Positions 2,044-14,653 of a stretch of DNA of 64,000 nt are shown piece after piece; position 1 is the first letter of the stretch; each line of letters begins with the position of its first letter. A program made the translations under genes and the position numbers. Source of the DNA: Alphaproteobacteria bacterium (GTDB taxonomy: Bacteria > Pseudomonadota > Alphaproteobacteria > Caulobacterales > Aquidulcibacteraceae); contig JAGWZE010000001.1 in NCBI GenBank assembly GCA_018969015.1, positions 124,001 to 188,000 of the forward strand, given 5' to 3'. The notes under the pieces are model-generated. The model did no database searches. It was not told the DNA's origin and saw only the letters and a program-made list of their open reading frames with translations.

Positions 2044-3312
2044 TCACGACGCCTTCAGCTTGACGCGGAAGTAGAGAGCCGAGGCCACCACGAGTACGAC
2101 ACTGACGACGGACGTCGCGTAGGCGCCGCCGACGAAGAACGCGAGCCAATCCAGGCTCGGCGCAGCGAAGTTCTTGTAGAGCATCAACGCAACGGAGCCC
2201 ACATAGCCGGCCGCATCGGCGAGATAGATCAGGAACCCCGCCGTACCAATCCGATGTGACGCGGCGAGCAGCCGTTCGAACAGCACGACGTTGTACGGGG
2301 TGTAGCAGACATAGAGACCGGCCCCGATGGCGACCATCCATGAGACGCCATCGATCCAGTGGAGCTGGAAGGCCAGCGTCGCGGCTCCAATCGTCAATGC
2401 GCCAAGCGCCATGAGCGCGTGCGTCACGAAGAAGGCGACGCGATTGGACCGGATCGCCATCATCGCCGCCAGAGCGACGAGGGCGACCGCGGCGACCGGC
2501 GCTTCACTCAGCGCGAAGATCGCGGCGTCTCCGCCGTGGCCCAGAGAGCGCCACAACTCTGCAGCGAAGTTGTCGCGGAAATCGCGCGCGACGGTGAAAA
2601 GCACGTAGGCGCCAATCAGGAGCGCAAGTCCGGCGCCGAACTGCGCGACGAAGTCACGACGCGCGGACGCGTCCATTGGCGCGCGGCGCATGCGGGCCTC
2701 TTCGTCCTCTCTTGTCGGCGGCGGCAACACCGAAAGACCCCAGACCGACACAGCGAGGACCGGGAAGAAAAGCGCCCCCGTCACCGCGGGCATCCAATAC
2801 TCCGGGACCCCCAAATCCACCATCGTCCAGGTCCCGATGCCCTTCACGACACCGGACGAAAGAATGAAGCTCGCGCAAAGAACGGCGCCGAGAACCTCGG
2901 TGACGCGACGACCTTCGAGATACGAGAACACGAGCCCCCAGATCAGGCCGAGCGGCAACCCGTTCGCGAACATCGCCGCCACCTTCAGTCCCGGCGGCGC
3001 AATCGCGAAGACGATCAGCGCCAGCCAGGCTGCGCCAATGAGCGCGAGAATCGCGGCGGCGCGCCCCTTTCGCCCAAGCTCCGATATGACCTTCACGCCA
3101 ATCGCTTTCGAGAGCGCGTAGCCGATCACCTGTGCAATCACGAGCGCGATCTTAAAATCGAGCGCCGCCGTCCACCCTTCCGGCGCATCGAACGTCGCCG
3201 CCGTGAAGGGTTTGCGGAATGCGTACATCGCGAAGTATGCGGAGAACGATGCGAGACCGCCCACGAGAATGACGAACGCCGTTTCCCAGCCCTCGGACCT
3301 GTCGCGCGCCAT
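2044..3312 (-). CDS. DUF5690-family (MFS-like) membrane transporter
   Basis: A 422-residue polytopic membrane protein with about 12 hydrophobic helices. The opening YFAMYAFRKPFTAATFD resembles organophosphate/sugar-phosphate antiporters of the MFS and is the signature I associate with DUF5690. It diverges from the dioxygenase-fusion gene across about 180 bases and converges on the phosphatase. No ABC-type phosphonate importer (PhnCDE or PhnSTUV) is visible in the window, so this protein is the best candidate for moving the phosphonate, or a breakdown product, across the inner membrane. Transporter fold is clear; substrate is inferred from neighbours. Confidence 0.8.
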   Translation of the reverse strand: MARDRSEGWETAFVILVGGLASFSAYFAMYAFRKPFTAATFDAPEGWTAALDFKIALVIAQVIGYALSKAIGVKVISELGRKGRAAAILALIGAAWLALIVFAIAPPGLKVAAMFANGLPLGLIWGLVFSYLEGRRVTEVLGAVLCASFILSSGVVKGIGTWTMVDLGVPEYWMPAVTGALFFPVLAVSVWGLSVLPPPTREDEEARMRRAPMDASARRDFVAQFGAGLALLIGAYVLFTVARDFRDNFAAELWRSLGHGGDAAIFALSEAPVAAVALVALAAMMAIRSNRVAFFVTHALMALGALTIGAATLAFQLHWIDGVSWMVAIGAGLYVCYTPYNVVLFERLLAASHRIGTAGFLIYLADAAGYVGSVALMLYKNFAAPSLDWLAFFVGGAYATSVVSVVLVVASALYFRVKLKAS

Positions 3313-3489
3313 CGTCTTGTTCCCCGCCGATCAGCCCTCACCACAAAGGCCAGAAACAGCGACAGTTCGATGACGGCGCGCCGCGTGGCGTCCCATTTTC
3401 GGCGCTCGCGATCGCGGTTCCATGGTGAAGTTCGAAGGCGGATCGTGCTAAACGCGACCCGCATCACGGCGAGCACGGGTATTCGCGAA
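3313..3489. promoter_or_regulatory. Divergent promoter region of transporter and phosphonate cassette
   Basis: The stretch separates the start codons of two divergent genes and must hold both promoters. I see no convincing -35/-10 pair or operator palindrome. An AAGG at 3435-3438 sits 6 bases before an in-frame GTG at 3445, so the rightward gene might start there instead of at the ATG at 3490. Confidence 0.4.
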
Positions 3490-5142
3490 ATGAGCCTTGG
3501 ATCGGCCAAAGCCAACGCCGCGCGCGCCGGTGTCGCGGACGTCGCACTGAATGCCCAGGACATCCTCGTGACGTTCACGGACGGGACCTTCGCGACCGTC
3601 CCCGCCGACCGACTGCTTGACAACGCACCCGATCGCTTCGACGCGGAAACCGGACAGCGCCGGGGCGCCGCGGTGACCGCCGCCGAATGCGCATTGGATG
3701 AGATCGAGATCACGGACGACGGTGTGAATTTCCGCCGGCAGGCGCTGAGGCTATCCTTCGCCGAGCTCCGTGAGATTGCCCGGCCCAACGCTGTGGACTT
3801 TTCCCGGCGTCGTCGATCATGGCGGTCGCCCAACGAGATCGGCCGACATGACGCGCGCGGATTCATCGACAACCTCGAAATCCAGAGAATCGCTTTGGCC
3901 GACTTCGTGCGCGACGGTGCATGCGTCCTGGAGGGACTCCCGGAGACGACGTCCGTCGATGAGGTCGTGGGCGCGTTCGGCCCGGTTCGCGAGACGAACT
4001 ACGGGCGTGTATTCGACGTGAAAGCCATCGCCGATCCCGACAATCTCGCGTCCACCGCATTGCCTTTGGCGCCGCACACCGACAATCCTTATCGCGCCTC
4101 GCCGCCGGACATTCAGATTCTCGTTTGCCGGTCGGCTGCCGAGAGCGGCGGCGAAACGATTCTTGTCGATGGGCTGGCGGCGGCCCAGCACTTGCGGGCG
4201 CACCACCCGACCCACTTCGACGTGCTGGCCCGGGTGCTGGTTCGGTTTCACTGGGGTGACGGCCACCATGGCCTTGCGGCCCGCGCTCCCGTCATCGCTT
4301 GCGCTGCGAATGGCGAAATCGAGCGGATTCGCGTGAACGATCGGGCTCTCCGTGACGTCATTGCGACCCCGCCAGACGAACGTGCATGGCGCGCCGCGTC
4401 CCTCGCATTCCAGGACGTGCTGCAATCCCATGACGTGATGGTTCGGCTGACGCTCCGGCCGGGCGACGTCCTGATGCTCGACAATCGGACGATCCTGCAT
4501 GGCCGTACAGGATTTGCAGACGCATCGCGCTGGCTTCAGGGCTGCTATGCCGATATCGACGGCCTCTTCAGCACGCTGGATCGCCTCGAGACCAAAGAAG
4601 CAGCGCGCCGGGTCGACGAATCTCTGGCGCTTCTTGCAGGACCGGCCGGCGACCAGACCTATGGCGAGAGCCTCAGTCTGCGCGCCCATTCCCTGCAGGC
4701 GGCGCATCTGGCCTGCGAGGACGGTTGCCCCGAACTCCTCATCGCCGCTGCCCTGCTGCACGATATCGGGTGGGCGGCCGATTCCCGCACCCATGAAGCT
4801 TCCGGCGCCGCCTTCGTTGCGCAGCGCTTCGGCGCTGCCGTTGCGGCGCCGATCGCCCTTCACGTTGCCGCCAAGCGCTATCTGACCGGCGTCGACCCGC
4901 GCTATCTTGAGACCTTGTCGCACGCCTCGCGCGAGACCCTCGCCATGCAGGGAGGCCCGATGGATCCGGCCATGTGCGCCGAGTTTCTGCGCTTGCCGGG
5001 CGCGCCCTTGGCGCTTCGACTGCGCGGCTTCGACGATGCAGCAAAGAATCCGGACGCCGAAGTGGCGCCGCTCTTGGCCTACCGGCCGCTCCTGACGCGT
5101 CTGGCGCGCGCAGCCCTTTCTTCCGAGGAGATCACAACGTGA
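3490..5142 (+). CDS. Fused phosphonate dioxygenase and HD-domain oxygenase (TmpA-TmpB / PhnY-PhnZ-like)
   Basis: The 550-residue protein has three parts. Residues 15-98 resemble the DUF971 domain of gamma-butyrobetaine hydroxylase. Residues 125-365 are a TauD-type 2-oxoglutarate/Fe(II) dioxygenase with HTD (196-198), distal His337 and Arg347. Residues 385-550 are an HD-fold mixed-valent di-iron oxygenase like PhnZ/TmpB: Y391, E393, H400, H424-D425, H435, H458, K462 and D515 fit the PhnZ ligand pattern as I remember it. In known two-protein systems the first enzyme hydroxylates the alpha carbon of (trimethyl)aminoethylphosphonate and the second cleaves C-P, giving glycine (betaine) and phosphate. 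Here both steps sit on one chain. The cysteines expected in the DUF971 zinc site are absent. Start could be GTG 3445. The stop overlaps the next start (GTGA). Confidence 0.85.
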   Translation: MSLGSAKANAARAGVADVALNAQDILVTFTDGTFATVPADRLLDNAPDRFDAETGQRRGAAVTAAECALDEIEITDDGVNFRRQALRLSFAELREIARPNAVDFSRRRRSWRSPNEIGRHDARGFIDNLEIQRIALADFVRDGACVLEGLPETTSVDEVVGAFGPVRETNYGRVFDVKAIADPDNLASTALPLAPHTDNPYRASPPDIQILVCRSAAESGGETILVDGLAAAQHLRAHHPTHFDVLARVLVRFHWGDGHHGLAARAPVIACAANGEIERIRVNDRALRDVIATPPDERAWRAASLAFQDVLQSHDVMVRLTLRPGDVLMLDNRTILHGRTGFADASRWLQGCYADIDGLFSTLDRLETKEAARRVDESLALLAGPAGDQTYGESLSLRAHSLQAAHLACEDGCPELLIAAALLHDIGWAADSRTHEASGAAFVAQRFGAAVAAPIALHVAAKRYLTGVDPRYLETLSHASRETLAMQGGPMDPAMCAEFLRLPGAPLALRLRGFDDAAKNPDAEVAPLLAYRPLLTRLARAALSSEEITT

Positions 5143-6269
5143 CGTACGACGTCGCAATCGTAGGGGCCGGGATCGTCGGTCTCGCGCATGCTGTGGCGGC
5201 CGTGCGCCGCGGGCTCTCCGTCATCGTCGTCGACCGGGACGCGCGCCCGATCGGCGCCTCGATCCGAAACTTCGGTTTCATCACCGTCACCGGACAGCGT
5301 CGAGGTGAGACCTGGCGGCGGGCCATGAGGTCTGCGGCCGTATGGGCAGAAATCGCGCCGCGGGCTGGCATAGCGATCGAGCAGCGCGGTCTCTATGTCC
5401 TCGCCCGCCGCGAGGAAGGCATCCCGATCCTCGAGGCGTTCGCCAAGACCGAAATGGGAGAAGCCTGCACCCTGCTGTCCGCGACCGAGGCTCACGCGCG
5501 CATCGGCGACGTGCAGCCCGAGGCGCTGAGCGCAGCGATGTTCAGCCCTCATGAGTTGCGCGTCGAGAGCCGTGACGCGATCCCGAAGCTCGTTGGGTGG
5601 CTGGCCGACATCGGCGTGTCGTTTCGTTTCAGCTGCGCTGCACGCGCCGTTACGCCGTCCGGTGTTTCAACCTCACGCGGCGACGTTAACGCCGAGACCG
5701 TGATCGTGTGCAGCGGCGACGATCTTGCGACGCTCTATCCCGAGAATTACGAGCGCTTCGGCGTCACGCGCTGCATTCTGCAGATGCTGCGCCTGGAGAG
5801 CCCGGGCTTTACGTTGCCAGCCCCGTTGATGACGGATCTGAGCCTCGTTCGATACAGAGGCTATGCCGATCTGCCGGAGAGCGCCCAACTGCGCTCAATA
5901 CTTCAGCGGGAACAGGCGGAGTATCTGGAGCATGGCGTCCACCTGATCATCGTCCAGAGCGGCGATGGCTCGCTCGTCGTTGGCGACAGCCACCACTATG
6001 CCGATGCGCCGGCGCCGTTTGCCGACAGCAGCGTCGAGTCGCTCATCCTGGCCGAAGCCCGCGCGACACTCGGAACCGCGCCTGCGGTTCGCGAGCGCTG
6101 GACGGGCACCTATGCGAGCGCGGCAGAAGACATGTTCCGCGCGTCGCCCGATATTCGAACGCGGCACGTGGTCGTCACGAGCGGCACGGGCGCGTCGACG
6201 GCCTTTGGCATCGCGGAAGAAACCTTCGCCGACCTTTTCGGCCCAGCCCCTGACAGGACATTGCCATGA
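5139..6269 (+). CDS. FAD-dependent oxidoreductase, phosphonate-associated (TIGR03364-like)
   Basis: The 376-residue protein starts with a dinucleotide-binding fold (DVAIVGAGIVGLAHA, GxGxxG at residues 9-14) and has the D-amino-acid-oxidase fold, including an IRNFGFITVTGQ segment and a C-terminal TSGTGASTAFGIAEE flavin loop. The family is known from its genomic association with phosphonatase-like hydrolases. From memory, members oxidise N-methylated 2-aminoethylphosphonate to phosphonoacetaldehyde. That would feed the PhnX encoded next door. The GTG start at 5139 shares bases with the previous stop and is preceded by GAGGAG. The 3' end overlaps phnX by 4 bases, so all three proteins are translationally coupled. 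Family is clear; exact amine is inferred. Confidence 0.87.
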   Translation: MTYDVAIVGAGIVGLAHAVAAVRRGLSVIVVDRDARPIGASIRNFGFITVTGQRRGETWRRAMRSAAVWAEIAPRAGIAIEQRGLYVLARREEGIPILEAFAKTEMGEACTLLSATEAHARIGDVQPEALSAAMFSPHELRVESRDAIPKLVGWLADIGVSFRFSCAARAVTPSGVSTSRGDVNAETVIVCSGDDLATLYPENYERFGVTRCILQMLRLESPGFTLPAPLMTDLSLVRYRGYADLPESAQLRSILQREQAEYLEHGVHLIIVQSGDGSLVVGDSHHYADAPAPFADSSVESLILAEARATLGTAPAVRERWTGTYASAAEDMFRASPDIRTRHVVVTSGTGASTAFGIAEETFADLFGPAPDRTLP

Positions 6270-7045
6270 GACTCCCCGCCATCATCTTCGATTGGGCCGG
6301 AACGATGGTGGATTTTGGCTCCGTGGCGCCCGTGATCGCCATGCGCCAAGCCTTCGCCGCGGAAGGCGTCGAAATCACCGAAGCCGATGTGCGCGCCGGC
6401 ATGGGGCTCGCCAAACGCGATCACGTCGTTTCCATCCTTGCCCTGCCGACCGTATCCGCAGCCTGGAGCGCCGCGCATAGAGGCCCGGCGACGGCGGAAG
6501 CCGTGGATCGAATCTTCGCCGCGATTGGCCCTTTGATGGCGCAGGCCGGAGCAGCGCGGGCGGACCTCATTCCCGGCGCAGCCGACGCCTGTTCGGTGCT
6601 GCGCCGCGCCGGCGTCCGTATCGGATCGACCACAGGCTACACGCGCGCGATGATGACGCCGATCCTGGAGCGCGCCGCAGCGCAAGGCTACGAGCCCGAC
6701 GTCGTGCTGTGCGCCGGAGAAGCCCCACAAGGACGTCCTGCCCCATTCATGATCTGGCGCGTTCTCGAAGCGCTGGGCGCTTGGCCCGCATCCGCCGTCG
6801 TGAAAGTCGACGATGCGCCCGTGGGGATCATTGAAGGAAAGAACGCCGGCTGTTTCACGATCGGCGTCGCGGCAAGCGGCAACGCCGTAGGGCTGGATCT
6901 CGCCGCTTACCTGGCGCTCTCCCACAGCGACCGAATGGCGCGGGTAGCAGCCGCGCGCTCAGAACTGCTCGCCGCCGGCGCAGACGTCGTCATCGACTCG
7001 GTCGCCGATCTAATGGAAGCCTTGCGAAGCAGAGCTTTGATCTGA
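6266..7045 (+). CDS. phnX: Phosphonoacetaldehyde hydrolase (phosphonatase)
   Basis: This HAD-superfamily enzyme (259 residues) cleaves phosphonoacetaldehyde to acetaldehyde and phosphate. Visible features are the nucleophile loop FDWAGTMVDFGS with Asp9 and Ala11 (phosphonatases have DxA where most HADs have DxD). Lys50 in GMGLAKRDH is the predicted Schiff-base lysine of the cap, and VKVDDAPVGIIEGKNAG is the C-terminal acidic motif. Length is normal for PhnX. The ATG overlaps the stop of the FAD enzyme (ATGA), so the enzyme that makes its substrate is probably co-translated. No terminator is obvious in the 263 bases before the convergent hipA, and I see no gene there. Confidence 0.93.
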   Translation: MRLPAIIFDWAGTMVDFGSVAPVIAMRQAFAAEGVEITEADVRAGMGLAKRDHVVSILALPTVSAAWSAAHRGPATAEAVDRIFAAIGPLMAQAGAARADLIPGAADACSVLRRAGVRIGSTTGYTRAMMTPILERAAAQGYEPDVVLCAGEAPQGRPAPFMIWRVLEALGAWPASAVVKVDDAPVGIIEGKNAGCFTIGVAASGNAVGLDLAAYLALSHSDRMARVAAARSELLAAGADVVIDSVADLMEALRSRALI

Positions 7046-7308: not shown

Positions 7309-8553
7309 TTATCGCATCCTCACCGCACGCGCCGCGACCAAAGTGGAAAACCGCTTTAGCTCCGCTTCCGACAGTCCTGACGTGACGATCTTTCCAGGAC
7401 CGCGCAACGCTTGCTCCGCCGCTGCAGCCGCCAACTCCTTCACCCGCCGGCGCACGAACGGCGCAGCAAGCCCAGCGTCGCCAGCAAACTTCGCCCAAGT
7501 CGTGTCGTCGACCTCCTCGAGCGTCGCGCTTTTCCCGATCTTCATCGAAAGCTTCGGCGAAAGCTCCGGATACGCCACGGTCGACAGCAGGTCATAGAGC
7601 GGCGCGAGCGTCGCCCCGTCAGGCCCGTAGAGGAGGCTGTAGTTTTTCCCGTGCGCGTCGGCGTTGCCGACGATCAGGTTGAAGATCGCGGCGTCGAGAA
7701 GCTTCAGGACTTCGACGGCCGGGCGTGTCGCGACACGGCGCAACAGCTCGAAGCTCGTCTTGAACGTCGGCCCGCCCTCGGCGGCGTATTTGTTCTCGGG
7801 CGGAATGCCGAGCGCCTGGCAGAAGTCTTCCTGATGCAAACGCGTGACGCGGCCCGCTGCGTCGCGCGCGCGATCATACCGCGTCACAAGGAGGAAATGC
7901 CGATCGGCAACCACGCGTGCTTCGGCAGGCGCGGCGACGAGCCCGAGTTCCGCAGCGAGCGCCATCGCGAACGCCTCGTTCTCCGTCGTTCCGGGGAAAC
8001 GCTCGATCGGCGGCTTCAGGATATGCGTCGTCGGTTGCCCCGGCGCCGGCAGCGCAATGGCGCCATCGACGAGCACGACGGGGATCTTGTTCTGCGCGCC
8101 GGCAAGCGACAGGCGCAGGCCCTCCCGCCCTGCCAGAAAGGGGCGCTTCGGCAGTTCGTCGAGCAGAGCGACGAGTGCGTTTTCGCCGAGCGGCTCCGGC
8201 GGGGCATTGCCCCCGGCCGTGGGCGGTTGCTCGCCTTCGGGCCAGAGCGTCAGGGCGCCCGCGACGTCGCCGCCCAGCGCGCGCAGCAGCGCGAAGTCAT
8301 TTCCCTTCGATAAGCCCAGCGCGCGCGCCACCGCCTCGCGCGGCGCCTCCTCGGGAAGAAGGCCTGCGAAGAACGGACGGCAGGCGCGGCGATTCAACGT
8401 CTCCGCCCTCTTGGGAAGCGAGGCCGAGAGTGGGGCCGCGCTGGCGTCCGCCAGCCACGCGGGATCGTAGGCAAAGCTCACGTCGCCATGCTCGTCGAGG
8501 CGCAGCGCGCCGACGATCTTGTCCTCCCACCAGACCGAGAGCGCCGCCTTCAT
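7309..8553 (-). CDS. HipA-family toxin kinase, module 1
   Basis: The 414-residue protein has the HipA layout: N-terminal subdomain 1 (to about residue 110), then a Ser/Thr-kinase-like core with the glycine-rich SLAGAQNK (149-156), the catalytic loop NADAHGKN (297-304) and the metal-binding Asp321 in YDLLS. HipA kinases phosphorylate glutamyl- or other aminoacyl-tRNA synthetases and cause growth arrest or persistence. All catalytic residues I can identify are intact. Its ATG overlaps the antitoxin stop by 4 bases, the usual coupled order antitoxin then toxin. Upstream lies a set of palindromes that should be the antitoxin operators. Confidence 0.92.
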   Translation of the reverse strand: MKAALSVWWEDKIVGALRLDEHGDVSFAYDPAWLADASAAPLSASLPKRAETLNRRACRPFFAGLLPEEAPREAVARALGLSKGNDFALLRALGGDVAGALTLWPEGEQPPTAGGNAPPEPLGENALVALLDELPKRPFLAGREGLRLSLAGAQNKIPVVLVDGAIALPAPGQPTTHILKPPIERFPGTTENEAFAMALAAELGLVAAPAEARVVADRHFLLVTRYDRARDAAGRVTRLHQEDFCQALGIPPENKYAAEGGPTFKTSFELLRRVATRPAVEVLKLLDAAIFNLIVGNADAHGKNYSLLYGPDGATLAPLYDLLSTVAYPELSPKLSMKIGKSATLEEVDDTTWAKFAGDAGLAAPFVRRRVKELAAAAAEQALRGPGKIVTSGLSEAELKRFSTLVAARAVRMR

Positions 8554-8762
8554 CGCGACGATCCCGGCTGCACAAGCGTGACGGCAAGGCCGAGCGCCGC
8601 CGCGACGGCCAGGGCCTTGCCTATATGCGAGGTCGGCTTCCCGCCCTCGAGATCGACGATGAACCGGACGCCCACTCCCGCCGCTCCGGCGAGCTGGTCC
8701 TGCCGCAAGCCCTGAGCCTTGCGGGCGGCGCGGATCGCGGCTCCGAATTCTTCAGCGGTCAC
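8550..8762 (-). CDS. HipB-like XRE antitoxin, module 1
   Basis: A 70-residue helix-turn-helix protein (AIRAARKAQGLRQDQLAGAAGVGVRFIVDLEGGKP) of the type paired with HipA-like kinases (Y4mF/HipB class). I place the start at GTG 8762 because GGAGAG sits 4 bases upstream on the minus strand. An earlier ATG at 8816 would put a perfect 24-bp operator palindrome inside the coding sequence. The protein should bind the palindromes upstream, repress the operon and neutralise the kinase encoded next. Confidence 0.85.
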   Translation of the reverse strand: MTAEEFGAAIRAARKAQGLRQDQLAGAAGVGVRFIVDLEGGKPTSHIGKALAVAAALGLAVTLVQPGSSR

Positions 8763-8770
8763 GGCGCTCT

Positions 8771-8794
8771 CCAAATTCCCGATCGGGAATTTGG
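8771..8794. promoter_or_regulatory. Perfect 24-bp palindrome, operator 1 of HipBA module 1
   Basis: Arms read CCAAATTCCCGA and its exact reverse complement, centred on 8782/8783. It overlaps the Shine-Dalgarno of the antitoxin gene. Its core TTCCCGATCGGGAA recurs in two further copies upstream, so it is the likely antitoxin binding site and lies where bound protein would block transcription of the module. Confidence 0.82.
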
Positions 8795-8817
8795 GGGTCC
8801 GCAGGCTCGAACACAAG

Positions 8818-8844
8818 GCAAATATTCCCGATCGGGTAATTTGC
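8818..8844. promoter_or_regulatory. Operator 2 of HipBA module 1 (imperfect palindrome)
   Basis: The core CCCGATCGGG is perfect, with partly matching flanks (GCAAAT on the left, ATTTGC on the right). The centre is 49 bases from operator 1. Confidence 0.72.
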
Positions 8845-8869
8845 TACCACTGACCGCAAAGGCGCTGCC

Positions 8870-8890
8870 GCTTTCCCGATTGGGAAAAGC
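8870..8890. promoter_or_regulatory. Operator 3 of HipBA module 1 (degenerate palindrome)
   Basis: TTCCCGATTGGGAA has one changed centre base and partly complementary GCT/AGC ends. The centre lies 48 bases from operator 2, so the three sites are almost evenly spaced along the promoter region. Confidence 0.65.
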
Positions 8891-8995
8891 TGACGCACAT
8901 TCATTCGCGTAGCTATCGGTGTAGGAGGTGGCGCAGCGTGTGGCCTCTCATGATCGGCCGCCGTTGCCACTTCAGGACCCGCTGCCACAACTCCC

Positions 8996-9123
8996 GCACC
9001 ATAAATAGTGCAATAAGAAATTTTTTGAGCGTTTTATCGTGCGTCCGCGCGCCCCTGGGTCGCACGCGCGCCAGCCGCACCATAAAGCGTGCATTAAGCG
9101 ATTCAACGCACTATTTTTGGCGC
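8996..9123. promoter_or_regulatory. Operator array of HipBA module 2 (GCAC-N8-GTGC sites)
   Basis: Inverted repeats with an 8-base spacer occur at 8996-9011 and 9077-9092 (both GCAC-N8-GTGC), and as variants at 9027-9042 (GAGC-N8-GTGC) and 9108-9123 (GCAC-N8-GCGC). The sites fall into two pairs, each 31 bases apart (8996/9027 and 9077/9108). The E. coli HipB operator likewise has short half-sites around an N8 spacer. The last site ends directly against the antitoxin ATG. Confidence 0.75.
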
Positions 9124-9450
9124 ATGAAAAACTCCTTTGCAGTCCAAGCCCTCCCCCTGCCAGTCCGCAGCGCCCTCACCAAGCTGGGCGCGGACATCTC
9201 GACCGCGCGCCGGCTGAGAGGCATTTCCGTGCAGTTGATGGCAGAGCGCGCCCTCGTTGGCCGCAACACGATCACCCGCCTCGAGCGCGGCGATCCCGGC
9301 GTTTCGATCGGCGTCTACGCCACCGTGCTGTTCGTGCTGGGAATGAGCGACCGACTCGCGATGCTTGTGGATCCATCGACAGATGCGGTCGGGCTCGCTC
9401 AGGCGGACGCGCTAGCCCCCAAACGCCCAAGACGGCGAAAGACGGCCTGA
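9124..9450 (+). CDS. HipB-like XRE antitoxin, module 2
   Basis: A 108-residue protein with a central helix-turn-helix (ADISTARRLRGISVQLMAERALVGRNTITRLERG) and a basic, disordered tail ending PKRPRRRKTA. It is longer than and unlike the module 1 antitoxin. The ATG at 9124 is chosen because the upstream frame runs through the operator repeats. The gene is separated from its HipA partner by one base (TGA-G-ATG), so the two are co-translated. It should bind the N8-spaced inverted repeats just upstream. Confidence 0.85.
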   Translation: MKNSFAVQALPLPVRSALTKLGADISTARRLRGISVQLMAERALVGRNTITRLERGDPGVSIGVYATVLFVLGMSDRLAMLVDPSTDAVGLAQADALAPKRPRRRKTA

Positions 9451-9451
9451 G

Positions 9452-10810
9452 ATGGAACGCGAACTCGAGGTCTGGATCGATCTGGCCGGGACGCCCGTGC
9501 GTGTTGGGCGCCTCTTCGTCCGCGCCAAAGCGAACCGGGAAACGTCCTCCTTTGCCTATGACCCGTCGTGGCTGAAGCAACCGGCGCGGTTTGCACTCGG
9601 ACCGTCGCTGATGCTCGCCGAGGGGCAATTCCACTCCGACCGCCCGCTGTTCCAGGCGTTTACGGACGCGGCCCCCGATTCCTGGGGCCAGCGCCTGCTG
9701 CGGAAACACGAGCGCAACGACGCCAAGACCAACCGCCGCACGCCTCGAACGATGTTGCAGGCCGACTATCTGCTAGGTGTCAGCGACGAAACGCGCATGG
9801 GCGCGCTCCGTTTCAAGGACGTGGGCGGGACGCATTTCTTGTCCGCCAGCGCAGAGCCGGTCCCGCCTTTGATCGAGATCGGCCGCCTGCTCAATGCGGC
9901 TGCGCGCTTCGACAAGGGTTCGGAAACGCCGCAGGACCTGGCGCTGGTGCTGGCCCCCGGGACCTCACTCGGCGGGGCTCGCCCGAAGGCGACCGTCCGC
10001 GACAAGGATGGCGCGCTGCTGATGGCGAAGTTTCCCAAGGCGGGAGACGACTGGCCTGTGATTCTGTGGGAGGCGGCGACGCTTGACCTGGCCGCCAAAG
10101 CTGGGATCGACGTCGCGTCAGGCCGGCTCGAAAAGGTCGCCCGGAAACCGGTGCTGCTCCTACGCCGATTCGATCGCGCAGGCGTTGCGCGGGTTCCGTT
10201 CCTTTCGGCGATGACGGCGCTCGACGCCCAGGATCACGAGAACCGCCAGCGTTCCTACCTTGAGATCGCCGATTTCATTCGCGTGGAGGGCGCGGCGACC
10301 CCGGCCGATCTCGCGCAGCTCTGGCGACGGATGATGTTCAACGTGCTGGTTTCGAACACCGACGACCACCTGCGAAATCACGGGTTCCTCCGGGCGGAGA
10401 AAGGTTGGCGCCTGGCGCCCGCCTACGACATGAACCCGACGCCGACGGACGTGAAGCCGCGGATCCACGCGCTTGCGCTCGACGAGACGGATCCGACTGC
10501 TGCGGCCGAAACCTTGCTGGCGATCGCCCCGCGGTTCGGGCTGACGAGCGCTGCGGCCCGCGAGATCGCCGCTGAGGTCGGCGCGGCAGTGTCGGGCTGG
10601 GCGAGCGTCGCCAAAGCCGTCGGACTCAAGGCGGGCGACATCGAGCGGATGGAGTCAGCGTTCGAACACGACGACGCCGTTACGGTCCGCAAGCTCGGGA
10701 CGCGTTCGGGATCGGTCGACCAGCCCACGAGGCGACCGACAAGCACGCGAAAAGCAACCCAGGCGCCCGCTCAGCCAACCGCACTGCGCCGACGGCCGAG
10801 AAAGACCTGA
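9452..10810 (+). CDS. HipA-family toxin kinase, module 2
   Basis: A 452-residue HipA homologue only distantly similar to module 1. It has the N-terminal subdomain (YDPSWLKQPARFALGPSL), the glycine-rich GTSLGGARPK (170-179), the catalytic loop NTDDHLRN (302-309) and the metal-binding Asp326 in AYDMNP. The kinase core looks complete. The last about 40 residues form a Thr/Arg/Pro-rich basic extension (ending LRRRPRKT) that HipA proteins normally lack and that may bind nucleic acid. The target is not predictable from sequence. It follows its antitoxin directly. Confidence 0.9.
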   Translation: MERELEVWIDLAGTPVRVGRLFVRAKANRETSSFAYDPSWLKQPARFALGPSLMLAEGQFHSDRPLFQAFTDAAPDSWGQRLLRKHERNDAKTNRRTPRTMLQADYLLGVSDETRMGALRFKDVGGTHFLSASAEPVPPLIEIGRLLNAAARFDKGSETPQDLALVLAPGTSLGGARPKATVRDKDGALLMAKFPKAGDDWPVILWEAATLDLAAKAGIDVASGRLEKVARKPVLLLRRFDRAGVARVPFLSAMTALDAQDHENRQRSYLEIADFIRVEGAATPADLAQLWRRMMFNVLVSNTDDHLRNHGFLRAEKGWRLAPAYDMNPTPTDVKPRIHALALDETDPTAAAETLLAIAPRFGLTSAAAREIAAEVGAAVSGWASVAKAVGLKAGDIERMESAFEHDDAVTVRKLGTRSGSVDQPTRRPTSTRKATQAPAQPTALRRRPRKT

Positions 10811-10995
10811 GCACGCCCAATCGACAGCACACGGAACCCGGAGGAATAGCGCGAATCCAGACGAGAGATTGGTGGCAAGATAAAATGCGCCGCAGCGTCG
10901 AGATCCGCAGCGCATTGTCTGCACATCTTTTTTTCGCAGGTCATTGTGGGACACGACGCAACGAGTTCGGACGATCACGACTTGGAGCGCGCGCA
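10811..10995. other. Non-coding stretch before relaxase gene; candidate oriT
   Basis: No gene is visible. An inverted repeat, AATGCGC (10884-10890) and GCGCATT (10910-10916), has a 19-base loop and lies about 80 bases before the relaxase start. Relaxase genes often sit beside their transfer origin, so this is a plausible oriT. No nic-site consensus was recognised. Confidence 0.3.
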
Positions 10996-12998
10996 ATGGC
11001 CAAATGGGATGGCGAAGACCGGCTGAGAGGCTTCTCCGGCAAATCGCGAACCGCGAATGACGTCAGCGCGGCGAGGTTTCCGCGCGCGTCGCTCGCGGGC
11101 TCGAGCAAGCGCGATCGCGCCGCCTGGTTCAATCGCAAGACCGGCGCAGGCGCCGTCAAACTCGCGCCCGAGCGCCCAGCGGGAAGCCAGCGCGTGATCG
11201 TCAAGACGCGTGTCGTCGTGCACGCGAAGGTCGGGGGCGGCGGCGGCGCGGGCGGGATGATGCGCCACACGCTCTATGTCGAGCGCGACGGCGCCGGCCG
11301 CGACGGCGACGAGGTCCACGTCTTCGATCGTGACCAGGATCGCGCCGATGGCGCCGCCTTCGTCGATCGCTGCGAGAACGACCGGCACCATTTCCGCGTC
11401 ATCATCTCCCCCGAGCGCGGCGACGAGATGGCGAGCCTGCCGGACTACACGCGCGACCTGATGCGCGAGGTCGAGGCCGATCTCGGCACGCAGATCGACT
11501 GGATCGCGGCGGAGCATCACGACACCGGCCGCCCGCACGTCCACCTCCTGATCCGCGGCGTGCACGAGAACGGGCGCGATCTCGTCATCCCGCGCGAGTA
11601 TGTTTCCCACACCTTCCGGCATCGCGCGGAAGAGATCGCCACGCGCGAGCTCGGTCTGCGCCGCGAGAACAGTCTCTCCGAGCAGCTGGACCGCGCCGAT
11701 GAGCGCGCGGCCAGGGCCGAACGGATGACGCACCTGGACGAGCTCCTCCTAGAACGCGCCCGCGAGCACGAGATCCGGATCAAGGACCTGCCGGAAGCCA
11801 CGCGCGACCGCGCGCCCCTCGTCCAACGGCTCAATCACCTCGAGGGCCTGGGTCTCGCCGAACGCACCGCCCCCGATACCTGGCGTCTCGATCCGGACCT
11901 CGAGACGCGCCTCATTCGCCTCGAGGACGCCCGCGACCGCGAGCGGGCGGCGGCACGGATTCTCGCGCACGAGGACCGCGGGTACGAGCCCGATCGCACG
12001 CGGGCCCTCGAGGACAGCCATTCCACCCATCGCGCCGTCGGCCGCCTCGTCGGCTTTGAGCCACTGACGCACCGGGCCGACGGCCCCACGCTCATCGCCA
12101 TCGAGGGCGTCGACGGGAAACTCTGGACCGCGCGCGTGAGCCGACAAGATGAGCTGCGCGGACTCAACGGCGTCGGTCGCGGTGCGATCGTCTCCATGCA
12201 ACGCGCCCCGCCTGACTTGAAACCCTCCGACCGCACCATTCTCGCGATCGCCGGCGAAGACGGGATCTATTCCGCCGAACGCCACAAGGAGCTCATCCCA
12301 ACAGATCAGCAGAAATACTCGACATGCACGTCCGCCGGCTCGAGGCGCTGCGCATGAGCGGCGGCGTCGAGCGCACGCCGGACGGGCAGTTCCTGCTTCC
12401 CGGCAACTATGCGGAACGGGTGTTGCGCCTCGAAGGCCGCGGCGCCCGCGAAAGCGCGAAGGTGCAGCTCCTCGATCCGCACTCGATCCAGCAGCAGGCG
12501 CGCTACCACGGGCCGACGTGGCTGGATCAGGTCATGACTGACAAGGTCGACCGCACCCACTTCGCGCGCGCGCACTTCGGCGTCGAGATCGAGCAGGCCA
12601 TGCAAACGCGGCTACAGACGCTCGTGTCGCTGGGCGCCGGCGTGCGCCAAGGCCAGAGCGTCGCGCTCTACGAGGGCTGGCAAAACCAGCTTCAGCGCAT
12701 GGAACGCGCCCTCATGCTGCAGCGGATCGAGCGCGAGACGGGCCGCGTGGCCGACGTCGCCCGCGACGGCGACCGTGTCCATGGCGTCTTCGTGAGCCGC
12801 ATCCACGCCGCCGAAAAGAGCTACGCCCTCCTCGTCCACGACCGCACCGCAACCCTCGTCCCGTGGCGGCCGGACATGGACCGCGCGATCAACCAGTTCA
12901 TGGCTGGGCAGGTGAGCGGGCGGACGACGGACTTCAAGTACGGGAAGGGCGTGGAGCAGGCGGTGAAGAGGGACTTGGGGCGGGGGCTGGATCGGTAG
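10996..12998 (+). pseudogene. DUF3363-type relaxase (VirD2-like), frameshifted near 12300
   Basis: The first frame (10996-12357) carries the relaxase domain: a putative catalytic Tyr in HTLYVERDG, FRVIISPERG, and the metal-binding HHDTGRPHVH. The second frame (coding to 12998) continues with the expected HVRRLEALR...VERTPDGQF and the rest of the DUF3363 domain. The join lies around 12290-12325, where one reading gives TDQQKYSTC and the other EILDMHVRR. Relaxases of this type nick oriT of integrative or mobilizable elements. Start ATG 10996 has GGAG 8 bases upstream. The nuclease half could still be made as a 453-residue truncated protein. Frameshift may be real decay or a sequencing error. 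No type IV secretion genes are present. Confidence 0.85.
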
Positions 12999-14374: not shown

Positions 14375-14653
14375 CTAGATCCCCGTGAGCGAGCGCCGCG
14401 GCGGCGTTGGCGCTTTCCGCGGCTCCGCCGAACTCCGGCGTGGGGCGCAGATCAGCGTCGCCAGGTAGGCATCCAAATGGCTCCTGCGGTACATCGCCCG
14501 CATCCCGACGTGGGTGCAGAGCGGGCCAGTGCCGTCGTGGAACTTCCGGGCGAGCGTCTGGGGCGCCGTGGTGAGCCCCCGCTCGGTCAGGTAGCGCGCC
14601 GCTTCCTTGCGCGACAGCAGGCGTTCGGGACGAAGTGCGTCGGTCACGTTCAT
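14375..14653 (-). CDS. Helix-turn-helix protein, mobile-element type
   Basis: A 92-residue protein with LLSRKEAARYLTERGLTTAPQTLARKFHDGTGP, the classic excisionase-like helix-turn-helix seen beside DUF3363 relaxases in alphaproteobacterial integrative elements, followed by a short Arg/Pro-rich tail. A near-perfect ribosome binding site (AAGGAGG, 6-base spacing) marks the ATG at 14653. It is probably the first gene of a leftward pair with the AlpA-like gene. Its presence supports the view that 10.8-15 kb is what remains of an integrative or mobilizable element. Confidence 0.7.
   Translation of the reverse strand: MNVTDALRPERLLSRKEAARYLTERGLTTAPQTLARKFHDGTGPLCTHVGMRAMYRRSHLDAYLATLICAPRRSSAEPRKAPTPPRRSLTGI

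Follow-up and report, generated by a model that had tools for sequence, protein, structure and literature searches.

We analysed a 64,000-nucleotide stretch of an alphaproteobacterial genome of the Caulobacterales (contig JAGWZE010000001.1), hereafter the window, in which two complete hipBA modules, predicted to encode kinase toxins with their antitoxins, are divergent neighbours. The genome comprises 3.4 Mb in 69 contigs, and all coordinates are positions in the window. Module 1, hipB1-hipA1, lies on the minus strand (8762-7309) and module 2, hipB2-hipA2, on the plus strand (9124-10810). The starts of the two antitoxin genes are separated by 361 bp (8763-9123), matching the gap of about 360 bases given in an initial annotation of this DNA. 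The four genes are as follows:

hipA1, 7309-8553, minus strand: 414 aa, predicted Y4mE-type HipA-family Ser/Thr kinase toxin (PF07804, 1.8e-51; PF13657, 2.4e-25)
hipB1, 8550-8762, minus strand: 70 aa from a GTG start, predicted XRE antitoxin and autorepressor of the Y4mF family (TIGR03070 couple_hipB, 75.5 bits, from a profile scan of the frame 8550-8768)
hipB2, 9124-9450, plus strand: 108 aa, predicted XRE antitoxin and autorepressor (HTH_31, 8.4e-06; HTH_3, 1.4e-04; both slightly below the Pfam cut-offs)
hipA2, 9452-10810, plus strand: 452 aa, predicted HipA-family kinase toxin (PF07804, 2.5e-49; PF13657, 7.7e-07)

In both modules, a gene for a helix-turn-helix (HTH) antitoxin lies immediately 5' of a gene for a full-length HipA kinase, with HipA_C and an N-terminal domain. 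The two genes overlap by 4 bases in module 1, and a single base lies between the hipB2 stop and the hipA2 start in module 2. Alignment to E. coli HipA identified the Gly-rich, catalytic and metal-binding motifs as LSLAGAQNK, NADAHGKN and YDLLS in HipA1, and as TSLGGARPK, NTDDHLRN and YDMNP in HipA2. Gene calls, domains and alignment thus confirm two real divergent hipBA modules with intact kinase motifs and one common intergenic region, as the initial annotation had described. From their gene order, kinase motifs and upstream palindromes, we assign both modules to the HipBA type II toxin-antitoxin systems, with toxicity and neutralisation predicted. No other HipA_C match (E<=0.001) was found in the 3.4-Mb genome.

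The half of the intergenic region next to hipB1 contains three putative operators (set 1), which match the inverted repeat TTCCCG-NN-CGGGAA and are listed without strand:

operator 1-1, 8776-8789: TTCCCGATCGGGAA, nearest hipB1, 0 mismatches
operator 1-2, 8825-8838: 49 bp from operator 1-1, 1 mismatch, spacing kept in relatives
operator 1-3, 8873-8886: 48 bp from operator 1-2, 1 mismatch, spacing kept in relatives

Operator 1-1 forms the core of a 24-nt perfect palindrome (8771-8794) and is the only exact copy of the motif in the whole genome. With one mismatch allowed, the pattern occurs at 24 places in the genome, three of them here, versus 37 for a reversed control pattern, so single set 1-like sites elsewhere in the genome carry no meaning. 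No two of the other places lie within 100 bp of each other. We then searched 84 distinct upstream regions of hipB1 relatives, allowing up to two mismatches; antitoxin matches below 45 bits and repeats were left out, and four more regions were dropped for short upstream DNA. Three sites were found in 64 regions, four in 3, two in 11, one in 3 and none in 3, with a spacing of 49 or 50 bp in 134 of 148 cases. Three or more sites occurred in 0 of 8,400 single-base shuffles. An alternative count that includes a few duplicate rows gave exactly three sites in 68 of 89 regions. Records with three or four sites are titled Proteobacteria, Acidobacteria, Verrucomicrobia, Gemmatimonadetes and Chloroflexota, although single phylum assignments may be wrong because many such records are metagenome bins. 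This distribution suggests that the set 1 array is old, and module-1 relatives without an adjacent module 2 also retain the array.

A closely similar array lies upstream of Y4mEF on plasmid pNGR234a of Sinorhizobium fredii, where three TTCCCG-NN-CGGGAA sites are found at -136, -87 and -38 (49 bp apart). Y4mEF has the same gene order as module 1 and a kinase 61.6% identical to HipA1, annotated beside a Y4mF-family antitoxin; unlike module 1, it is plasmid-borne, and the 9.2 kb examined there carry no annotation of a second hip module. E. coli K-12 hipBA resembles both modules in being an antitoxin-kinase operon with several palindromic operators upstream, but its operators are four TATCC-N8-GGATA sites whose starts lie 28, 39 and 28 bp apart, compared with three sites at 49 and 48 bp for module 1. 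The nearest described parallel that we found is the HipBST array of Legionella pneumophila, which, according to the available text of PMC10653801, has three evenly spaced upstream operators with 53-bp gaps in nearly all species. That system differs from module 1 in being tripartite and in its motif and spacing. We found no description of a three-operator, 49-50 bp array of Y4mEF-type hipBA in the literature searched, which left most subscription journals outside it, and the motif strings gave no match there in a paper with a hipBA title.

On the hipB2 side, set 2 consists of three GCAC-N8-GTGC-like sites, and perhaps a fourth, with the form CGCAC-...-GYGC. Genome G010 carries the closest module-2 relative, with a hipB2 80% identical to that of the window, and its corresponding sites are given for comparison:

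operator 2-1 (putative), 8995-9011: CGCACCATAAATAGTGC, the distal site, at -128 from the hipB2 start; counterpart at -130 in G010
possible weak fourth site, 9027-9043, matched on the minus strand: 2 mismatches, no counterpart among the sites listed for G010
operator 2-2 (putative), 9076-9092: CGCACCATAAAGCGTGC, at -47 here and in G010
operator 2-3 (putative), 9107-9123: adjoins the hipB2 start codon, at -16 in both genomes, with a degenerate right half in G010

Set 2 is shared with G010, while the rest of the DNA upstream of hipB2 differs between the two genomes. In less similar module-2 relatives (hipB 63% identical), the operator sequence is visibly different. The pattern, which was derived from these same sites, was found 8 times in the window versus 1.87 expected (0 of 100 shuffles). 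Across the genome, at up to two mismatches, it occurs at 7 places (3 here) compared with 11 for the control, and both exact ones are here. Sets 1 and 2 do not overlap: each motif occurs in one half of the gap only, and about 108 bp between them (8886 to 8995) are free of sites, which rules out operators shared between the modules. We therefore read the intergenic region as two predicted operator cassettes placed end to end, with no operator set in common. A promoter scan, to which we gave no weight, detected no sigma-70-like site.

HipA1 and HipA2 are 25% identical to each other, and 29% and 21% identical, respectively, to HipA of E. coli K-12. In a HipA tree they fall on separate supported branches (100/99) with different nearest relatives. 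The tree holds 92 of 152 rows (all 28 HipA2-like, 38 others and 26 of 86 HipA1-like, with identical rows dropped), is rooted at its midpoint and carries a long-branch warning for its deepest joins. These comparisons indicate that the modules are related only at the superfamily level, and they bear out the initial annotation in its view that kinases and antitoxins are too distant for a simple duplication. HipB1 passes the Y4mF-family model TIGR03070 (75.5 versus a cut-off of 71.65 bits), whereas HipB2, a weaker XRE protein, fails it (28.6 bits). HipA1 is close to solved structures. HipA2 matches only three PDB sequences at E<=1e-5, all HipA_C chains of 312-320 aa, one of them named HipT(Lp), and for this reason we considered whether module 2 is a HipBST system. 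It is not: HipA2 keeps its N-terminal domain, and no hipS lies between hipB2 and hipA2. A YjjJ/HipH identity was also ruled out, as PRK09775 scored 50 versus 401 bits and the module is bicistronic. The experimentally analysed hipBA modules fall in clade I of the Hip tree of Gerdes and co-workers, as far as the available text of that study goes (PMC8262856). The HipA2 type is found on many alphaproteobacterial plasmids, with 377 of 72,556 plasmid records matching at E<=1e-20, all below 60% identity. One of these, pEHA105 of Agrobacterium fabrum (48.1% identity), shares the gene order and kinase type of module 2, but its annotation, from an incomplete gene table, shows neither a relaxase nor a second hip module over 10.2 kb. 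Among viral contigs there is one module-2 relative, at 48%.

The initial annotation had proposed a survey of related genomes for the same divergent pair. None of 80 named module-1 relatives has a HipA2-type gene beside module 1, within up to 6 kb on each side (less at contig ends). Genomes G010 and G453 encode both modules on different contigs. In G010, HipA1 is 81% identical to that of the window and HipA2 is represented by fragments of 83% and 73% on two contigs, and there is no partner module in 3.3 kb upstream of hipB1 or 5.6 kb upstream of hipB2. In G453, module 1 lies on C466 and module 2 on C399, with 3.3 kb and 1.8 kb of partner-free DNA upstream of the respective antitoxins. Loci from the genome searches mostly carry about 1-1.5 kb of flank, so a more distant second module could escape. 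The divergent pair is thus not conserved in the relatives compared, among which there is no genus-mate of the window's genome; to that extent, one of the outcomes that the initial annotation had listed as refuting its proposal has been observed. The hipA2 counterpart of G010 (L131:5938-6606 and L132:7886-8647) is broken near residue 180 with other sequence past each break, which may reflect either an insertion or an assembly break. One of the 80 relatives, a Phenylobacterium locus (L061), has two module-1-type copies in divergent orientation, about 2.5 kb apart.

Directly downstream of hipA2, the window contains a relaxase gene, followed by a small open reading frame (ORF):

RlxS-type relaxase gene, 10885-12998, plus strand: in two frames, 10885-12357 and 12324-12998 (NF041267 matches of 3e-82 and 1.7e-34, under the curated threshold)
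small ORF of unknown function, 14375-14653, minus strand: also follows rlxS in loci L189 and L190, at 69% and 71% identity and in the same order and orientation

The relaxase gene appears to be what is left of a mobilizable element associated with module 2. In L189 (G444) and L190 (G453), the gene next after hipB2-hipA2 encodes a single-frame relaxase of 698 and 687 aa, respectively, 67-70% and 56-58% identical to the two window pieces. For the two-frame gene in the window, genuine decay and sequencing error are indistinguishable. The block hipB2-hipA2-rlxS-small ORF recurs in G444 and G453 without module 1. The small ORF, which has no Pfam match, lies about 60 bp from rlxS in L189 and L190 versus 1.4 kb here, and probably belongs to the element block. 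An apparent HipB-HipA fusion in L189 proved to be an artefact of undetermined residues within hipB. The same locus (L189:10555-13373) has genes for TIR-domain and tetratricopeptide-repeat (TPR) proteins beside the rlxS block, possibly defence cargo.

Integrase genes border both modules in several of their closest relatives. In G444, G453 and G156, the second to fourth closest module-2 relatives, hipB2 is preceded on its own strand by a tyrosine integrase ORF at a distance of about 160-200 bp. In the two closest module-1 relatives, such an ORF lies about 140 bp upstream of hipB1 (G010, same strand) or 2.3 kb upstream (G036); the integrase ORFs of G444 and G010 were checked against Pfam. Module 1 itself adjoins another RlxS-like relaxase in G453 (C466) and G036 (C7), with the Pfam Relaxase match above cut-off for G036 only. 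Across 60 genomes of the family, which have 61 HipA genes, at least 9 of these genes have an RlxS match within 5 kb, versus 0.75 expected under uniform placement in 3.3-Mb genomes; these 9 include both kinases of this locus and three of G453. None of the 836 ORFs of the window matches an integrase profile at E<=1. With its relaxase in two frames and no integrase match, the window does not contain an intact integrative and mobilizable element, whereas L189 and L190 have both genes.

These data lead us to propose, with a probability of roughly 80%, that hipBA1 and hipBA2 are two independent, element-borne modules that came to abut through element decay or recombination. In each module, HipB would neutralise the cognate HipA kinase by binding to it, and HipB, alone or in the HipBA complex, would repress the promoter of that module by acting at the module's own operators. 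In module 1 these would be the three sites spaced by about 49 bp, and in module 2 a distal site and two that lie close together. Once released, HipA would arrest growth through phosphorylation of a cellular target, by analogy with the aminoacyl-tRNA synthetases phosphorylated by other HipA kinases. Reported targets, in the available text of the two studies, are GltX in E. coli and TrpS for HipT (PMC8262856), and GltX, LysS and TrpS in Caulobacter (PMC8262856; PMC7029023). Because the modules border integrase or relaxase genes in several of their closest relatives, the most likely original use of each is maintenance of an integrative or mobilizable element. The divergent layout may have arisen when two cassettes met with their integrase-facing ends together, after which the element decayed.

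Several observations weigh against this model. Among 73 module-1 loci, only 6 have an integrase within 2.5 kb upstream, 4 of them on the same strand; among 41 module-2 loci, only 3 do. Within this distance there is none beside module 2 in G010, its closest relative, where the nearest one seen is about 3 kb away on the other strand, and none beside module 1 in G020, its third-closest relative (73%). A search for att sites, which was not in depth, gave none, and for this reason the meeting of two integrase-facing ends is stated here only as an inference. As to the operators, the set 2 pattern derives from the very sites that it detects, and its backing comes from one relative, G010. Set 1 at two mismatches is found 6 times in the window versus 5.17 expected, with 42 of 100 shuffles reaching 6; since set 1 is not rarer than chance at this level, the argument for it depends on the better-matching sites, with their spacing and conservation. 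Finally, pairing may have some selective value, because close HipA pairs exceed uniform placement and because a second divergent pair exists in genome G017 (both described below).

The initial annotation had suggested that binding at one operator set could affect the other module, and that the pair could act as a two-toxin switch. In this scenario the modules would be coupled through the shared gap, by cross-binding, by HipBA bridging or looping, or by supercoiling, releasing one toxin or both together. The short distance between the nearest sites of the two sets and the G017 pair are compatible with such coupling, and there is a precedent in Caulobacter crescentus, which encodes hipBA1, hipBA2 and hipBA3 and probably belongs to the same order as the window's host. 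According to the available text of PMC7029023, HipB1 and HipB2 of that species cross-neutralise, and its authors speculated on transcriptional crosstalk from the identical inverted repeats of hipBA1 and hipBA2. Yet the Caulobacter modules are separate operons by locus tag, and where their repeats are identical, the two halves of the gap in the window carry different motifs, so direct crosstalk at the DNA is unlikely here. Each operator set also persists at loci that lack the other module (for set 2, at a single locus), the two modules have only distantly related antitoxins and kinases, no conservation of the pair was seen among the relatives compared, and the G017 pair is built from other HipA types. 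On balance, we consider a two-toxin switch unlikely.

We also hold it unlikely that one or both toxins are dead remnants, inactive after decay of the element, with only the HipB repressors, or nothing, still functional. The two-frame relaxase and missing integrase match do suggest that the element is decaying, but none of the four hip genes is interrupted, their motifs are intact, and the two operator sets have stayed intact or almost intact.

A further possibility is that divergent hipBA-hipBA pairs are a recurring, selected layout in the family, seen here and, with wholly different HipA types, in G017, in which toxins with different targets are coupled by short-range DNA bending or supercoiling between adjacent operator arrays of different kinds; this would make a dormancy switch of two toxins without shared sites. 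The G017 locus (L142:3648-7684) contains two complete divergent hipBA modules with about 400 bp between the antitoxin starts. One side has an antitoxin of 224 aa, and the other has a kinase of 488 aa whose C-terminal part includes a winged-helix-like stretch. In the 60 family genomes, 3 of 47 same-genome HipA pairs lie within 5 kb, versus 0.16 expected on the same uniform-placement assumption; the three are the window's own pair and that of G017, both divergent, and a tandem pair in G005. G028 has a further tandem pair at a contig end, outside this count, its second kinase being missing from the match list. Among the matches listed for the class (385 genomes) and the order (398 genomes), counted by eye, further close HipA sets occur in G101, G358, G406, G474 and G505, all on one strand. 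Arrays of two HipA kinases in tandem are seen at L143 (G101), L137 (G005), L138 (G028), L144 (G358) and L145 (G406), and in G101, G005 and G028 the second kinase belongs to a HipA2-type module behind an unrelated HipA. On the HipA tree, 8 labelled pair members require 8 changes and are scattered as in shuffled labels (mean 7.8); these 8 rows do not include the G005 and G028 pairs or the left kinase of G017. HipA pairing thus recurs in the family with changing partners, and by itself is no proof of coupling. The changing partners fit islands that collect toxin-antitoxin cassettes, and we regard a selected divergent layout as improbable. Phrases describing adjacent toxin-antitoxin systems gave no match in the literature searched.

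The junction between the two modules could in principle be an assembly chimera, given a genome in 69 contigs and the split of the G010 hipA2 counterpart over two contigs. We consider this very unlikely, as the region lies inside a 208,751-base contig, far from its ends, and the genome contains one copy of each kinase. Tandem duplication with inversion of one ancestral module would account for the common gene order but is scarcely credible against the low identity of the kinases, their separate supported branches and different nearest relatives (under the long-branch warning given above) and their different operators.

The pair at this locus would then exemplify how the toxin-antitoxin cassettes of mobilizable elements pile up side by side with their regulation intact, and adjacency alone is no sign of a circuit. 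The more general result, and the one most worth following up, is the 49-50 bp three-operator array upstream of Y4mEF-type hipBA, which by record title extends over several phyla. If HipBA1 bridges the three sites, the array would define a simple geometry for a large class of hipBA modules, unlike that of E. coli.

A scan against a defence-system library returned weak partial matches only. In the left flank of the modules, the nearest gene encodes a protein resembling PhnX (phosphonoacetaldehyde hydrolase), preceded by an FAD oxidoreductase; this stretch (about 3500-7045) resembles a phosphonate degradation cluster, and a 927-aa ORF spans 2359-5142. PhnX matches occur in 5 of the 60 family genomes, with the four besides the window's genome at 50-52%.

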